IMG/VR virus record: IMGVR_UViG_3300046170_000080
Coordinates: 1 to 34,737 of that record
Direction: 5' to 3' (one strand)
DNA: 34,737 nt
Source: a virus
In this document: positions 1,051 to 33,033 of the stretch, piece after piece
How positions within the stretch are numbered: the stretch's first letter is position 1
Layout: every line of letters begins with the position of its first letter
Position numbers and translations under genes: made by a program
The notes under the pieces: model-generated
What the model was told of the DNA's origin: nothing
The model's database searches: none
What the model saw: the letters and a program-made list of their open reading frames with translations, nothing else

Positions 1051-1458
1051 TTAACCCTCTACCTTGTAAACTGTACGAATGCGACGACGTGCCGCTGTGT
1101 CTGCTGTCCAGTCATGCAACAAGCCGTCACGAATGCACAACGCGTGGCCTCTGACTGTCACATAGTACGTACCTTGCGCCATTACTTTTGCAAACCGTCC
1201 GATAGTCATTCCGTAAAAAGCCCTGTCGGATAACTCACGAATGCTTTTGCCTTCTGCGTGAACAGCGTCCGTTATAGCGGGAAACCAATCAGCATGGCGC
1301 ATACCACAGCGTTGTTTTCTGCCGTATCTTTTCATGTGTCTGTGAGCTTTACCGTATGACCAATCAAGCGACAACGCAAGCGCCGCAACTGTACAAAAGT
1401 TTTTATCTTTGTAACGTTCGATTGCAACCTTTGCCAGATCTTCAAAATTCTGTCTCAT
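1051..1458 (-). CDS. putative papain-like-fold cysteine hydrolase, first gene of the leftward block
   Basis: The chosen start is ATG at 1458, with an AGGG about 7 bases upstream; a TTG at 1464 would add two residues. The 135-residue protein has a layout I associate with small phage proteins of the papain-like or NlpC-like fold: an N-terminal Cys in KNFCTVAALAL (Cys22), and a C-terminal beta hairpin GTYYVTVRGHALCIRDG with His105, followed by HDW (Asp116). These would form a Cys-His-Asp triad. The match is by pattern only, and the C-terminal 15 residues are strongly basic. It is the most promoter-proximal recognisable leftward gene, so it would be made first after infection. It could instead be a non-catalytic member or an unrelated DNA-binding protein. 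Confidence 0.5.
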   Translation of the reverse strand: MRQNFEDLAKVAIERYKDKNFCTVAALALSLDWSYGKAHRHMKRYGRKQRCGMRHADWFPAITDAVHAEGKSIRELSDRAFYGMTIGRFAKVMAQGTYYVTVRGHALCIRDGLLHDWTADTAARRRIRTVYKVEG

Positions 1459-1474
1459 TGTCAAACCCTCGTTA

Positions 1475-2086: not shown

Positions 2087-2145
2087 GTTCTATTATGGAA
2101 CTGAGTAGGTTCTATTTTGGTACTTAGTAGGTTCTATTATGGAAC
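2087..2145. repeat. three iterons with exact 22-bp spacing
   Basis: Fifteen-base cores begin at 2087, 2109 and 2131. The first and third are identical (GTTCTATTATGGAAC) and the middle one differs at two bases. Each core is an imperfect palindrome (GTTC...GAAC), and the first two are followed by a shared TTAG/TGAG-TAG spacer. A period of 22 bp is two helical turns, placing all copies on one face of the DNA, as for binding sites of a replication initiator or a dimeric repressor. They sit directly beside three DnaA boxes. Confidence 0.8.
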
Positions 2146-2148
2146 TGC

Positions 2149-2192
2149 TGTGGATAAGTCTGTGGATAACTCTGTTGAAAAGCTGTGGATAA
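2149..2192. promoter_or_regulatory. cluster of three perfect DnaA boxes
   Basis: TGTGGATAA occurs at 2149-2157, 2161-2169 and 2184-2192, all in the same orientation. Its complement TTATCCACA matches the bacterial DnaA box consensus TTATNCACA exactly. The cluster begins 4 bases after the last iteron and is followed by a G-rich tract (2194-2211) and an AT-rich region. This is the arrangement of bacterial and plasmid origins, and implies host DnaA may be recruited. Confidence 0.8.
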
Positions 2193-2411
2193 CTGGGGCG
2201 GGGAGGGGGAGATGCTGACAACTTTTCTGTATGTTGCTACCCAGACACAAAAAAGAGTCAAATTAGACCCTAAAATAACCCCTAGTTATCTAACAAGAAA
2301 CAATATATAAATCAATAACATAAGCAGCTCAGAATCTGGACCGTGCTGGTACAGTTTAAAGGACGTTGTCAAGTCTTTTATAAATATATTATTTTTTTTT
2401 CAACAAAGGTA
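2193..2411. other. G-rich tract then AT-rich region, candidate origin unwinding element
   Basis: Bases 2194-2211 hold three G runs separated by single bases. From about 2260 onward the sequence turns strongly A+T-rich, with runs such as AATATATAAATC and a long T run ending at 2400. Next to DnaA boxes this is what a DNA unwinding element looks like. No gene is visible. The assignment depends on the neighbouring boxes. Confidence 0.45.
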
Positions 2412-2449
2412 TTGCTTTTTGTTCGTTTTTATGATATACTATTAGTATA
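2412..2449 (+). promoter_or_regulatory. rightward sigma70 promoter with palindromic operator on the -10
   Basis: The -35 TTGCTT (2412-2417) and -10 TATACT (2435-2440) are separated by 17 bases. The -10 is the left arm of the near-perfect palindrome TATACTATTAGTATA (2435-2449). The 19-base block ATGATATACTATTAGTATA recurs exactly at a second promoter (7905-7923), so the palindrome is probably a shared regulatory site. It should drive the rightward block beginning at 2577. Confidence 0.75.
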
Positions 2450-2576: not shown

Positions 2577-2972
2577 ATGACTGATAACGCAGTTCCTCCT
2601 AAAAGGAAACGTGGAAGACCACGTAAAACTGAAGTTTCGTCTGTTAAAAAAGGTAGTCGCAACGCTGTTGGTCGCCCGAAGGGTGACGCTGCTGTCATAA
2701 ACGAATACAAAGCACGTATGTTAGCATCACCTAAGTCCAGAAAGGTGCTAGATACTATCTTTGATGCGGCGTTAGACCATGATCATAAGAATCAAGCGGC
2801 AGCGTGGAAGCTTGTTATGGACAGAATCCTGCCCGTTGCAGCGTTTGAGAAAGATGTTGTTAAGGACGGTGGTAGAAGTGCCATTCAGATTAACATTAGT
2901 GGTGTTGGTGCGGTAGATGTTGAACAACCTACAGTCATAGAAGGCGAGGTAGTTAATACAGATGAGTCTTAA
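2577..2972 (+). CDS. putative terminase small subunit with AT-hook-like N-terminus
   Basis: The 131-residue product begins with two AT-hook-like basic motifs (KRGRPRK near residues 11-17 and GRPKG near 32-36) suited to minor-groove DNA binding. A helical segment and a C-terminal beta-rich tail (IQINISGVG) follow. Position at the head of the structural block, two genes before the large terminase, and the basic N-terminus suggest the DNA-recognising small terminase; the family match is from memory of similar marine podovirus proteins. The ATG is 6 bases after AAGAGG. The 3' end overlaps the M15 peptidase gene by 11 bases. Confidence 0.6.
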   Translation: MTDNAVPPKRKRGRPRKTEVSSVKKGSRNAVGRPKGDAAVINEYKARMLASPKSRKVLDTIFDAALDHDHKNQAAAWKLVMDRILPVAAFEKDVVKDGGRSAIQINISGVGAVDVEQPTVIEGEVVNTDES

Positions 2973-3312: not shown

Positions 3313-3665
3313 TGCTATATACTAAAAACAAAAACTTAGCGGACACCAGTACGCAAACAATTGTAACTATTCCTAATGGGTACGTTGCACACTGGAACAT
3401 GGCATTTGTAGCTAACCTAGATAACTCTACTAACAGTGTTACGTTGTTTGTAGACAAGCCTAGTCCAATAGAAGATATATATATTTATAACGGCACTAAT
3501 ATATCGTCAAAAGAAAACCTATTGATTGACGGTAATGCAGTGTTTGTTTTACAGCCGGGGGACATTATTAAAGCATCTAGTGGTAGTGCAGGGAACGTAG
3601 AAGTAGTAGTTACGTTTGATTTGTTAGAAGCACCAGCAGTGTTTAATAATTTTAATGGATCTTAA
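3312..3665 (+). CDS. hypothetical virion protein (117 aa)
   Basis: The start ATG at 3312 overlaps the preceding TAA by one base (TAATG). The protein is rich in beta-prone residues with a regular VTIP...VTLFVD...VVVTFDLL pattern, typical of small head decoration or tail accessory domains, but no family is recognised. It overlaps the large terminase start by 11 bases. A structural role is inferred only from position and beta-rich composition. Confidence 0.6.
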   Translation: MLYTKNKNLADTSTQTIVTIPNGYVAHWNMAFVANLDNSTNSVTLFVDKPSPIEDIYIYNGTNISSKENLLIDGNAVFVLQPGDIIKASSGSAGNVEVVVTFDLLEAPAVFNNFNGS

Positions 3666-4905
3666 TATAGAACTACTGCCTTGGCAGCAAGATGTTTGGG
3701 CAGACGAAACACGGTTTAAAATAGTAGCTGCTGGGCGACGTACAGGTAAGTCTAGGTTAGCAGCATGGATGTTAATTGTTAACGCACTACAGGCGGACAG
3801 AGGCCATGTATTTTACGTCGCACCTACTCAAGGACAAGCCAGAGACATTATGTGGCAAACCCTCCTCGAACTGGGGAATCCTGTTATTGCTGGTAGTCAC
3901 ATTAATAATTTGCAAATCAAGCTGGTCAACGGAGCTACCATCAGCCTCAAAGGTGCTGACAGACCAGAGACAATGCGAGGTGTCTCACTCAAGTTTTTAG
4001 TGCTGGATGAGTACGCAGACATGAAGCCTGATGTATTCGAGCAGATCCTGAGACCTGCATTGGCTGACCAAAAGGGCTGTGCGATGTTCATTGGTACACC
4101 GATGGGCCGCAACCATTTCTATGAACTATACAAATATGCAGAGTTAGATGATGATCCGACTTACAAGGCTTGGCACTTTACTTCTTACGATAATCCTATT
4201 CTTGACCCGGCTGAAATTGATATTGCAAAGCGCTCTATGTCTTCTTATGCGTTTCGTCAGGAATTTATGGCGTCGTTTGAAGCCCGTGGTTCAGAGATGT
4301 TTAAGGAAGACTGGGTACGCTTTAGTCAGGATGAGCCGGAAATAGGTGATTACTACATTGCAGTTGACTTGGCGGGATTTGAAGAAGTTAACAAGAAGAG
4401 AACTAAGAACACCAAACTTGACGACACAGCGATTGCCGTGGTTAAGGTCAGCGAGCATGGTTGGTTTGTTGACAATATCATACATGGCAGATGGTCACTT
4501 GACGAAACAGCAGCTAAGATATTTCAGGCCGTTAGAGATTATCGTCCCGTGTCGGTGGGAATCGAAAGAGGTATTGCAAAGCAAGCCGTTATGTCGCCTC
4601 TGATGGACCTACAGAAACGTTACGGAAACTTCTTTAGAGTTGAAGAGTTAACACACGGTAACAAGAAGAAGACCGACAGGGTAATGTGGGCGTTGCAGGG
4701 ACGCTTTGAAAATGGGTACATTACTCTGAACAAGGGAGAGTGGAATAGTCGTTTTCTAGACCAGCTCTTTCAGTTTCCTGACCCTTTGACCCATGATGAC
4801 TTGGTGGACGCACTAGCGTACATTGACCAATTGGCTAACGTAGCGTATGACTATGACTACGAAATAGAAGACCATGATATTTTAGACGTGGTAGCAGGAT
4901 ACTAA
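3655..4905 (+). CDS. terL: terminase large subunit
   Basis: The 416-residue packaging motor pumps DNA into proheads and cuts it. The N-terminal ATPase shows Walker A GRRTGKSR near residues 28-35 and Walker B LVLDEYAD near 115-122. The C-terminal nuclease shows the acidic residues of an RNase H-like fold: Asp in YYIAVDLAGF (about 228), Glu in VGIERG (about 301) and the DD in THDDLVDALAY (about 381). Length is close to other compact podovirus terminases. It overlaps the preceding gene and is followed after one base by the portal gene, its docking partner. Confidence 0.93.
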   Translation: MDLNIELLPWQQDVWADETRFKIVAAGRRTGKSRLAAWMLIVNALQADRGHVFYVAPTQGQARDIMWQTLLELGNPVIAGSHINNLQIKLVNGATISLKGADRPETMRGVSLKFLVLDEYADMKPDVFEQILRPALADQKGCAMFIGTPMGRNHFYELYKYAELDDDPTYKAWHFTSYDNPILDPAEIDIAKRSMSSYAFRQEFMASFEARGSEMFKEDWVRFSQDEPEIGDYYIAVDLAGFEEVNKKRTKNTKLDDTAIAVVKVSEHGWFVDNIIHGRWSLDETAAKIFQAVRDYRPVSVGIERGIAKQAVMSPLMDLQKRYGNFFRVEELTHGNKKKTDRVMWALQGRFENGYITLNKGEWNSRFLDQLFQFPDPLTHDDLVDALAYIDQLANVAYDYDYEIEDHDILDVVAGY

Positions 4906-28686: not shown

Positions 28687-30339
28687 CTAGTGAGTTTCAG
28701 CCCAGTTGTTGCCTACTCTATATTCGCCGTCTAAGGGACACCGTAGGCTGAGTGTCTCACCGGCGATTCTGATTGCACGTACACCTATACGACCAACTGT
28801 GTCAGCGTAGTGGGCAGTCGTTTCTATCTGCCATTCATCGTGTACGTTCGCTACAAATCTATGTGGTATGTTCTTCAATCTATCTGACAAGTGTACCAGA
28901 GCTTGCTTCATAACGATAGCCCCTGCACCCTGCAGTAACGTATTCAAAGCGGCGTGTTCTGATCTGACTCTGAGCTTTCGTCCGTCGAGTCCAGTAAGTA
29001 TGCCTGATGCAGCCTGCCTGAGAGTGTCTCCTCTAACTCTTTCAAGAGACGGCGTGTTAGATAGAAATGTTTCTTTAAGTCCTCGTCCAGTATTGCTATT
29101 TCCTCCAACGATAGCTCCGATCTTAGCATCTCCGGCTCCATACAGAAACGCATAAATGAATGTCTTTGCAAGAGGCCGACTCTCAAGTCCTGCTGCTCGC
29201 TGATTAGCCGTATGAATATCGCCATTGAGTAATTCATTAGTGTAATTCTCATCGTCCATGTAGTGAGCTAACATACGAAGCTCTAGTCCGCTGGCGTCAA
29301 TACCAACAAGAACATTACCCTCATCCACTGTCCAACATGAACGGCACTCAGTCCCGAACGGAGCAGATACGGCGGGTACTTGCGCCATGTTAGGTGACTG
29401 GTGTGTCATACGTCCTGTCACAGCTCCGTTGGTAATGACTCTACCATGTACCCTACCATCATCCTTAACTGCTTTCAACCATGAATCTATCTGTGCCACT
29501 CGTTTCTGTAACATCATGTAACGTGCGACTGCTTTAGCTTCTGGAAGATCTATACCCTCAAGCACCTTCTCATCAACGATGATGTTTCCCTTCTCTGTCT
29601 TCTTGTTAAACTTAACGCCAAGACCTTGCAGACGCTCTGCTATCTGCTTACGTGAGCCGGGATTGAACACTGTTACCTTATCCTTCAGACGCTTAAATGT
29701 CTTCTCAGAGATACGCTCTTCAACGATAGGTGGAAAAATATCTTGTAGGCTCGCTTCAATGTTGTTCATCTCAAACATCAAATCCATCATCAGCTTCTCA
29801 GCAAACGGTATGTCTAACTTAAAACCGTTACGTTCCTGCTCAGTCACGATCCAACCTACGTTATGCTCAAGCTCAACAGACTGCTGCGAGAATCCTTCTT
29901 TGCGTATCTGCAACGCAAGCCATTGATGTACACGCTCAGTCAGCTCAACGTCAGCGATACAGTACTCGACCATCTCGTCAGTCAGTCCTCCGTCGTAGTC
30001 CTCGAATGCAATCTTTCCAGCTCCTCCAAGAATCTCTCCCCAGTTTCGCAGGGAATGACCGCCCTCTTGACTGGGGTTGTAGAGTCTTGAGAGGTAGAGT
30101 GTGTCCACAACGCTATGCCTAGGGATGCGTACACCCCAAACACTATCAAGAACGTGACAGTCAAATCCGATGAGATTATGCCCCACAATCTGTTGCGCAT
30201 CATGTAACACCTTCTTCAGTGTGTCGGGTGTGGTGTGTACTTGTATATCGTTCTTCACCTTCGTAACTGCACACCAGATCGTTGAGTGATCCAAAGTAGT
30301 TTCTATATCCAAGTAGCAGGTATTCATGATACGTCTCAT
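28687..30339 (-). CDS. DNA polymerase, family A (T7 gp5-like)
   Basis: The protein carries a 3'-5' exonuclease (CYLDIETT near residues 8-15, GHNLIGFDCH near 53-62, YCIADVELT near 126-134) and a family A polymerase domain: motif A DASGLELRML, motif B with KTFIYAFLYGAG, and motif C VHDEW. At 550 residues it is shorter than T7 polymerase (about 700). No clear thioredoxin-binding insertion was seen, but I could not align it. Either ATG at 30339 or at 30327 could start it; neither has a strong ribosome binding site. It replicates the genome with the helicase-primase. Confidence 0.93.
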   Translation of the reverse strand: MRRIMNTCYLDIETTLDHSTIWCAVTKVKNDIQVHTTPDTLKKVLHDAQQIVGHNLIGFDCHVLDSVWGVRIPRHSVVDTLYLSRLYNPSQEGGHSLRNWGEILGGAGKIAFEDYDGGLTDEMVEYCIADVELTERVHQWLALQIRKEGFSQQSVELEHNVGWIVTEQERNGFKLDIPFAEKLMMDLMFEMNNIEASLQDIFPPIVEERISEKTFKRLKDKVTVFNPGSRKQIAERLQGLGVKFNKKTEKGNIIVDEKVLEGIDLPEAKAVARYMMLQKRVAQIDSWLKAVKDDGRVHGRVITNGAVTGRMTHQSPNMAQVPAVSAPFGTECRSCWTVDEGNVLVGIDASGLELRMLAHYMDDENYTNELLNGDIHTANQRAAGLESRPLAKTFIYAFLYGAGDAKIGAIVGGNSNTGRGLKETFLSNTPSLERVRGDTLRQAASGILTGLDGRKLRVRSEHAALNTLLQGAGAIVMKQALVHLSDRLKNIPHRFVANVHDEWQIETTAHYADTVGRIGVRAIRIAGETLSLRCPLDGEYRVGNNWAETH

Positions 30340-31078: not shown

Positions 31079-31248
31079 TCATCCTCCGGTTCTGCTAAAA
31101 CTATACGAACATCTTTATACATATAAGGATCAATACCTATAGTAGCGGCTTCACACCGGCGGTAACTCCCTTTAAGAATAACTTGAGGTATAAAAACACC
31201 ATCACACGCATACATATCACCAATTAAAGTGTATTCAAGATCACTCAT
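31075..31248 (-). CDS. small hypothetical protein (57 aa)
   Basis: A 57-codon frame fits exactly between the helicase-primase and the nuclease-like gene, with ATGA overlaps at both ends (31248-31245 and 31078-31075). The product has alternating hydrophobic residues (YTLIGDMYACDGVFIPQVIL), suggesting beta strands. No family is recognised. Perfect coupling at both ends is the main evidence. Confidence 0.7.
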   Translation of the reverse strand: MSDLEYTLIGDMYACDGVFIPQVILKGSYRRCEAATIGIDPYMYKDVRIVLAEPEDE

Positions 31249-32864
31249 AGCGGTTTCTCCTCACGTTCATCACGTTGTGTTAGTCGTCCTGTTGCTTCAT
31301 TGTAGAATACTTCACACGCCTTGCCGGTCTTTCCGGTGTACCTGTTCTTCAACACCCGCAGCACGGTCGTGTTTCTAACAATGGGATCATCACTCTGGCT
31401 GTTACGTTCAGCACCGATGACCGCATCAGAGAGCTGTGCAATCGACGCAGAGCCACGTAACATACCAAGGCTAGTGACAGCACCGTCCTCCAATTGCTTC
31501 CCTTCAGGGCGTCTCAGGTGGCTCACAAGGAACATACAGATCCCCATCTCCTGCACGAACGTCCTCAGCTTAGTCATGATCATATCCAAAGCACGTCGCT
31601 CATCACCGTTGCTCTGGTCAGACACGAGTATTGAGACGTGATCGAGTACGATATAACGTACGCCTAGTACCTTAACGAAGTATCTCATGCGGCCCAGTAC
31701 GTTTTCTATCTCGTTACTGCCGAAGTGTTCCCAGAGATAGACACGGTTCTCATAGTCCATCGTATCGTACACTAGATCAATGTCGGTGTCGTCATACTCA
31801 CAGTCAGGTAGGTGGATAGGTTTGTTCAGCTCAAGACCTACCAGTCCTCGCATGGTACGCTCAGGTGTCTCCTCAAGAAACATCAAGCCAAGGTTATCTT
31901 CTGACTGCGCCATGATAGAACTGACTATCTCACGCAGAAGCGTAGACTTACCCAGTCCAGAGCCTGCACAAATAGTAACCAGCTCAGCAGTGCGTATGCC
32001 GTACAGGTGTTTGTTCAGCCCCTCGAACGGGTACTGTACCTTCGCCTTGGTCAGTGGCTTCTTGATCAGATCACGTAGCTCACCAGCACCAACGATCCCT
32101 TCAGGTGTGTAGGGTTGAGCAGACCAGAATGCTTTGGTGTACGCATCAGCTTGATTGTTAACAAGGTAATCACACGCATCTTTGTAGCCGTTGACGTGCT
32201 TAACAATCCTCGCTTTGTTACCGAACAGATCAGCACATTCCTTTGACGCTCTCTGTCCCGGCTCGTCAGCGTCGAAACAAATAACAATGTTCTCGAAGCT
32301 GTTCAGCCAATCATAAAAAAGGCGACAGTCCTTTGCCGCCGACGTTGCACCGTTACGGACACTGACAACGGGATACATACTACCTGTCATTTGATGAGCT
32401 GCTAACGCATCGTACTCACCTTCAACGATAGTCACATACTTACCACCTTCAGGGAACAAGTGCTGTCCATACAAGCCTGCTTGCTTCCAGTCACCAATGA
32501 TACTGAACCGCTTGTCAGGGTTGCGTACCTTGGCAGCTATGGGTTTTGTTGGATCATCAGGGTTGTAATAACCAAAGGTTGTAACGTCACCCTGCTTGAG
32601 TGCTGCGTACTTCTTCGCCGTCGATCCTGTAATTAAACGGTCAGTTATTGAACGGTACTCCGCTGTGATTAACCGATGTTCTGTCTGGCTAAACGATGGC
32701 TTCGGTGCATCGCTGATAGAACCTAGCTCTCGCACGTTGTCAACCTTCGCCGCTGGTGTGTACGTATCACAGACAAAACACTTACTTGAACCGTCATCGT
32801 TGTACGCTAACCCGTCACTGCTGTCACAGTCAGGACATGGTTTATGTGTCTCAGTGAATGCCAT
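31245..32864 (-). CDS. helicase-primase (T7 gp4-like)
   Basis: The ATG at 32864 is preferred over an upstream TTG at 32900 because GGAG precedes it. The 539-residue protein starts with a zinc-binding primase domain (HKPCPDCDSSDG...KCFVC), then a TOPRIM fold (IVEGEYDALAAHQ and CFDADEPGQRA), then a RecA-like hexameric helicase with Walker A GSGLGKST and Walker B YIVLDHVSIL. It unwinds DNA and makes primers. The length is close to T7 gp4 (566 residues). Confidence 0.94.
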   Translation of the reverse strand: MAFTETHKPCPDCDSSDGLAYNDDGSSKCFVCDTYTPAAKVDNVRELGSISDAPKPSFSQTEHRLITAEYRSITDRLITGSTAKKYAALKQGDVTTFGYYNPDDPTKPIAAKVRNPDKRFSIIGDWKQAGLYGQHLFPEGGKYVTIVEGEYDALAAHQMTGSMYPVVSVRNGATSAAKDCRLFYDWLNSFENIVICFDADEPGQRASKECADLFGNKARIVKHVNGYKDACDYLVNNQADAYTKAFWSAQPYTPEGIVGAGELRDLIKKPLTKAKVQYPFEGLNKHLYGIRTAELVTICAGSGLGKSTLLREIVSSIMAQSEDNLGLMFLEETPERTMRGLVGLELNKPIHLPDCEYDDTDIDLVYDTMDYENRVYLWEHFGSNEIENVLGRMRYFVKVLGVRYIVLDHVSILVSDQSNGDERRALDMIMTKLRTFVQEMGICMFLVSHLRRPEGKQLEDGAVTSLGMLRGSASIAQLSDAVIGAERNSQSDDPIVRNTTVLRVLKNRYTGKTGKACEVFYNEATGRLTQRDEREEKPL

Positions 32865-33033
32865 TACGTCCTGCTCCCATGTCAGTGTACAGCTCGTCAA
32901 TCTTTTCGTCGTCCATTGAATCTAACAGGTCAGAGAAAAAGTTACCAGCAATATTCATTGCTTCAATGAGCGTTAACGTCTCCAACTGTCGTTCAACAAG
33001 CTCACTCACTTTCTGTTCTTTAGAGATACTCAT
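32851..33033 (-). CDS. small acidic helical protein (60 aa)
   Basis: An acidic, helical 60-residue product (VSELVERQLETLTLIEAM, DLLDSMDDEKIDEL) encoded just before the helicase-primase, overlapping its start by 14 bases. The ATG has AAGG about 10 bases upstream. About 60 bases of non-coding DNA separate it from the previous gene, the largest gap within the leftward block. Function unknown. Confidence 0.65.
   Translation of the reverse strand: MSISKEQKVSELVERQLETLTLIEAMNIAGNFFSDLLDSMDDEKIDELYTDMGAGRNGIH

Follow-up and report, generated by a model that had tools for sequence, protein, structure and literature searches.

A probable landing array for host proteins, exchangeable between relatives, in the inferred terminal repeat of a phage with a T7-type replisome

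Introduction

At each end of their genome, phages of the T7 group carry a short repeat of about 160-290 bp, and in four cultured phages this repeat holds 4-6 exact DnaA boxes, often 21-22 bp apart. These are Enterobacter phage phiEap-1 (exact terminal repeat of 195 bp, 5 exact boxes), Shigella phage A7 (177 bp, 4 boxes), Klebsiella phage ZK1 (292 bp, 6 boxes) and Klebsiella phage Kp7 (238 bp, 5 boxes). The terminal repeat of T7 itself has no DnaA box, and no mention of DnaA boxes in T7-type terminal repeats was found in the open-access literature. A second described case is the left terminal repeat of T5, where sites for host factors lie in the DNA that enters first. The injection stop signal of T5 contains DnaA boxes and has been proposed to interact with host components (proposals summarised in a 2026 paper, PMC13250531). 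The terminal repeat of the T5-type phage Spc35 contains DnaA boxes and one LexA box, and the terminal DNA of VCPH also contains DnaA boxes and a LexA box. Finally, the LUZ24-like P. putida phage tf has 186-bp terminal repeats, two convergent transcription units and host sigma-70 promoters, and the excerpted description mentions no host-regulator array in the repeat (PMC3517423).

The window analysed here, a stretch of 34,737 nucleotides of viral DNA taken at its full length, belongs to a phage group that shares features with each of these systems. As in the excerpted description of phage tf, short terminal repeats, two transcription units and host sigma-70 promoters are found. As in the T7 group, a short repeat with DnaA boxes is present, but in this phage group sites for several host regulators replace one another in the cassette, which borders an invariant G-tract, and no phage RNA polymerase was found among the larger ORFs scanned. 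With T5 the analogy concerns the layout only; the T5 repeats are of ~10 kb and contain genes, modular swapping is not shown for T5, and T5 belongs to another phage family.

Gene context and composition of the block

The block under study (2087-2192) sits in the intergenic region 1465-2576, between two divergent operons. The leftward operon comprises T7-type replication genes (DNA polymerase, 28687-30339; primase-helicase, 31245-32900; exonuclease; endonuclease I), and its first gene (1051-1464, minus strand) matches PHROG 3754, to which no function is assigned, and is not recognised as a Rep. The rightward operon comprises packaging and structural genes and has a sigma-70-type promoter, TTGCTT-N17-TATACT (2412-2440, plus strand). 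A small DNA-binding-like protein (2577-2972, plus strand; Pfam AT_hook, E 6e-4) is encoded 5' of the terminase large subunit (3655-4905, plus strand), a position that makes it a candidate small terminase.

Three direct repeats, GTTCTATTATGGAACTGAGTAG, GTTCTATTTTGGTACTTAGTAG and GTTCTATTATGGAACTGCTGTG, start at 2087, 2109 and 2131, with a spacing of exactly 22 bp (2087-2152, plus strand). They contain a near-palindromic core, AGTTC-N7-GAACT, and the second and third match the first at 82-86% identity. The last four bases of the third repeat are also the beginning of the first of three exact DnaA boxes (TGTGGATAA; TTATCCACA on the minus strand), located at 2149-2157, 2161-2169 and 2184-2192 in a single orientation. 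For the whole window ~0.27 exact boxes are expected versus 3 found, all inside 44 bp, and a scan of the whole window shows no exact box outside this cluster. The boxes are followed by a G-rich tract, GGGGCGGGGAGGGGG (2195-2209, plus strand), and, 3' of it, by AT-rich DNA. Thus, the arrangement described in the initial annotation, with three repeats at exact 22-bp intervals, three same-strand exact DnaA boxes and then G-rich and AT-rich DNA, is confirmed. Also its two negative observations hold within the sequences scanned: no match to a phage RNA polymerase appears among the larger ORFs, and no Rep-like protein among the ORFs scanned, which included three leftward small genes near the block but not several very small ORFs. 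Because the larger ORFs gave no match to a single-subunit RNA polymerase, the phage is not filed under Autographiviridae (the T7 family).

The same annotation had read this arrangement as a plasmid-like origin. As in iteron plasmid origins, tandem 22-bp repeats lie beside DnaA boxes and AT-rich DNA; the differences are that a cognate Rep gene is not recognised in the ORFs scanned, that the repeats are missing in most relatives and that the block lies in a terminal repeat (see below). An iteron origin served by a Rep protein was rejected as the main reading, given that no Rep is recognised and that relatives swap the block, and no support was found for persistence as a plasmid. Overall, the plasmid-origin reading is mostly not supported. 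Cumulative GC skew, proposed as a check, has its minimum near 1.5-2 kb, close to the block, and its maximum near 24 kb; however, since both extremes coincide with switches in gene direction, the skew provides no independent evidence of an origin.

Conserved frame in related phages

Related regions were collected by terminase-based and pattern scans of viral contigs, and 76 distinct ones were retained after dereplication and removal of chance matches. They share a common frame, composed of motif A (CCTACCTAGACTCTCACACTCC, 2056-2077 in the window, plus strand), a variable cassette, a G-tract of the family form CCGGGGGAGGGG, ~35 nt, motif B' (TGCTACCCAGACACAAAAAAGAGTCAAA, 2235-2262, plus strand), an AT-rich stretch and a rightward sigma-70 promoter. 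The G-tract is nearly invariant and is found in the same place in many relatives whichever cassette they carry, being the 3' border of the exchangeable part. For the G-tract and motif B' (family core ..CTACYCAGACACAAAA..), conservation is judged solely from the terminase scan, because the pattern scan itself required the G-tract and part of B'. The core of motif B' resembles motif A, and a first automated comparison, poorly anchored, was weakly better than for shuffled cores (4.8 vs 5.5 mismatches).

In one kind of cassette, 2-10 DnaA boxes form an array. Other cassettes are built of sequences close to the LexA, Fur or sigma-54 consensus, or of unassigned repeats, e.g., TTGCATTTTGC, and the window's own box, GTTCTATTWTGG, also recurs as a cassette repeat in relatives. 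These regulator classes are assigned from consensus matches, and 27 of 118 labelled regions (about a quarter) match none of the site classes tested. Of the block itself, the DnaA arrays recur in relatives (14 of 76 regions), and the 22-bp repeats are absent from most relatives and single in others. No close cultured phage was found among the annotated relatives, and no cultured phage matched a sigma-54 array by BLAST. A genome scan for hosts gave only few matches, in metagenome-assembled contigs that may be misbinned virus, and a combined LexA and G-tract scan gave 119 matches, mostly in unrelated phages, with motif B' in one.

Immediately right of motif B', outside the terminal repeat, an alignment of relatives reveals a conserved AT-rich non-coding stretch (2263-2410). 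It holds the motif CAGAATCTGGACCGTG..GTACAGTTTAAAGGAC, and in other clades a repeated ATCTGCACTGTAAA is found there. A structured RNA across the G-tract region was also considered and rejected, because the fold of 2195-2400 (plus strand) is no better than shuffles and there is no Rfam match. On the other side, the first leftward gene is preceded by a long non-coding leader (1465-1890) that has no Rfam match, is ~80-83% conserved in some relatives and, as leftward RNA, folds better than shuffles (z = -2.8).

The distribution of promoters bears on the possibility that the block is an operator region, through which host regulators would act on early or late phage promoters. Such a role would fit LexA, Fur and DnaA, which regulate transcription, as well as the promoter-like sigma-54 sites and the divergent operons on either side of the region. 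Nonetheless, sigma-70-type promoters are common at +150 to +300 from the G-tract among 61 related regions, weak ones also lie 250-350 bp to its left, and few are located inside the cassettes, which argues against a plain operator. Moreover, the sigma-54 sites in the cassettes point in both orientations. Control of phage promoters is thus a very improbable explanation of the block.

Contig ends at the frame borders

The frame borders coincide with the ends of several relatives' contigs. For example, G045 (35,799 bp) begins precisely at motif A and stops directly in front of motif B', its two termini bearing near-identical repeats, and G002 (35,752 bp) has an exact terminal repeat of 146 bp whose edges are again at motifs A and B'. 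A third contig, 3300047157_000113 (37,421 bp, LexA type), has its right end at the same point, so that in three independent full-length contigs the right edge is the start of the G-tract plus 35 nt. On the left, contigs start at motif A, exactly or within 1-2 nt, in L123/L196, L195, L218, L182, G002, G044 and G045. The contig ends would then correspond to fixed, sequence-specific ends, seven or more of them at motif A on the left and three on the right at 35 nt from the start of the G-tract. Other full-length contigs end elsewhere, several of them with end overlaps (e.g., 99 or 127 bp), as circularised assemblies do.

Since these contig ends coincide with the edges of the frame, the block reported here would lie inside a direct terminal repeat. 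The same sequence at both contig ends is observed in G045 and G002 and is projected to the window by homology; in the window, a repeat of ~179 bp (2056-2234) has most likely been collapsed into one copy, motif A being the putative left packaging end and terminase cut site and motif B' the putative right packaging end.

This location brings in a role in packaging or concatemer processing, in which bound host proteins and the G-tract would pause forks or position the terminase, so that the repeat is duplicated and cut at both edges. Several features are consistent with it: the cassette and the G-tract lie exactly between the two cut sites, the right edge lies a constant 35 nt from the G-tract in three genomes, a common core is found in motifs A and B', and putative terminase genes adjoin the region. 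However, only the G-tract and the motifs are conserved as terminase signals would be, and the cassette is not. As an explanation of the cassette, packaging is rather unlikely, and it may be complementary to the binding of host proteins proposed below.

Distribution of host-regulator sites

The enrichment of sites in the related regions was calculated against the rest of the same contigs (564 kb). Exact DnaA boxes number 68 in 14 of the 76 regions vs 3 in this background (764-fold). Over the same background, sigma-54 sites (57 in 15 regions) are enriched 1922-fold, E. coli-type LexA sites (23 in 15 regions) 155-fold and Fur sites (26 in 9 regions) 28-fold. The window box GTTCTRTTWTGGNAC occurs nine times in 6 of 76 related cassettes and is absent from the background. 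Reversed-consensus controls gave 0-0.9-fold, and little or no enrichment was observed in the related regions for CtrA, IHF, Fnr, PhoB and alphaproteobacterial LexA sites.

The sites are also confined in position. DnaA, LexA, sigma-54 and window-box sites cluster between -300 and 0 from the G-tract, with two in total at +36 to +400 and none at -700 to -400. Their spacings are in helical phase for DnaA, sigma-54 and TTGCAT boxes, and Fur sites show no clear phasing. These comparisons support that the DnaA boxes are a real and selected feature, and the enrichment together with the helical phasing makes binding by host DnaA likely. As a separate observation, L199 has a DnaA box TTATCCACA and a near-box in its left flank (~4240-4500), outside the terminal repeat.

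An array of this kind could act as a decoy, the amplified phage DNA titrating a host regulator, with a stop of host replication in the case of DnaA or SOS derepression in the case of LexA. The cassettes do hold multiple near-consensus sites, and the regulators that are interchanged are global ones. However, a sponge could sit anywhere, yet few of the sites are found in the rest of the genomes or in the adjacent non-coding DNA; this confinement to the repeat argues against titration, and helical phasing would be unnecessary for it. A decoy function is therefore improbable.

Exchange of cassettes and its bearing on replication

Cassettes differ even between very close relatives. L248 is 94% identical to the window over 2191-2975, yet it carries another cassette, and L089/L187, L199 and L123 have flanks 74-80% identical and different cassettes. 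Moreover, terminase pairs that are 96-99% identical fall into unlike classes, for example LexA in L205 and sigma-54 in L135, or DnaA in L254 and sigma-54 in L294. On the tree of the terminase large subunit (TerL), the cassette classes need at least 22 changes.

These exchanges weigh on the proposal that host DnaA opens an origin here, in which the boxes would be bound by DnaA, the neighbouring AT-rich DNA opened and the phage replisome loaded, other cassettes recruiting other host proteins as origin enhancers. The helical phasing of the DnaA boxes, the conserved AT-rich DNA directly to their right, between divergent operons, and the change of skew sign at the block would agree with this. On the other hand, in many close relatives LexA, Fur or sigma-54 sites take the place of DnaA boxes, the sites are confined to the terminal repeat though adjacent non-repeat intergenic DNA is available, no Rep gene is recognised in the ORFs scanned, and the skew is confounded by gene direction. 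Since relatives with flanks 74-94% identical carry LexA, Fur, sigma-54 or other arrays, DnaA would not be an obligatory initiator; what stands of the earlier proposal is that the boxes are selected and probably bound. Furthermore, terminal repeats of cultured T7-group phages, phiEap-1 with its annotated RNA polymerase gene among them, hold arrays of the same type. Taken together, a replication origin is quite an unlikely account of the block.

Proposed role at the genome ends

The reading that we favour, with a probability of roughly 0.6, is that the linear genome of this phage, which has a T7-type replisome, carries in its direct terminal repeat an exchangeable landing array for host proteins, and that the block is this array. 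In this scheme, host proteins that recognise the sites of the cassette would sit on the two ends of the genome as it enters and, in concatemers, on the one repeat that separates successive genome units. Close to the DNA end, the array would be an anchor or roadblock by which genome entry is held or staged, the ends are shielded or processed, or both, similar to what has been suggested for the injection-stop region of T5, which contains DnaA boxes. In the window, this part would fall to DnaA and to a putative protein binding the 22-bp repeats. What the comparison establishes at the level of sequence is the location, the consensus sites, the swapping, the phasing and the confinement to the repeat.

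As regulators of unrelated function serve interchangeably, a generic, structural role is likely, and this argues for such a role at the genome ends over DnaA-specific initiation. For the landing array, occupancy by host proteins and function are what we infer from this pattern. Points that speak against it include the Fur sites, without clear phasing and only 28-fold enriched, the unclassified regions, 27 of 118, the full-length contigs that end elsewhere, and the lack of such an array in T7 itself.

The apparent plasmid-like origin thus becomes evidence for modular host-regulator sites on phage genome ends, found both in uncultured phages of a widespread group and in cultured phages of the T7 group. 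It also makes a concrete role of host proteins at phage DNA ends testable, be it in entry, end protection or packaging, and the cassettes may read out the regulators of the host and so help host prediction. More tentatively, the terminal repeats of several tailed-phage families could carry swappable host-specific arrays of operator sites for global regulators of the bacterium (DnaA, LexA, Fur, sigma-54 and others), docking cassettes that capture or stage genome ends on entry and are exchanged on adaptation to new hosts, a generalisation that is possible but has the odds against it.

Sites of similar type in more distant phages

Sites of these types were also seen outside the group. In a more distant phage group, of which two members were read (G048 and G049, loci L451 and L452; also G050 and G052, L342 and L344), DnaA boxes are accompanied by a GGGGGGAGGGG tract and a B'-like motif, GGGTGCCTCCCCCCCTCTGAAAAAGC. 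The unrelated large phages J2-1 (L586, 575-612), CBB (L589, 488-560 and 846) and Pylas (L585, 681-715) have LexA-like sites in or close to their terminal repeats or genome starts, and their BLAST matches are not significant. DnaA-box arrays are present as well in the small circular genomes of Microviridae records PQ006258, PQ006781, MG945667 and similar, and in one such record the array overlaps the replication initiator gene.
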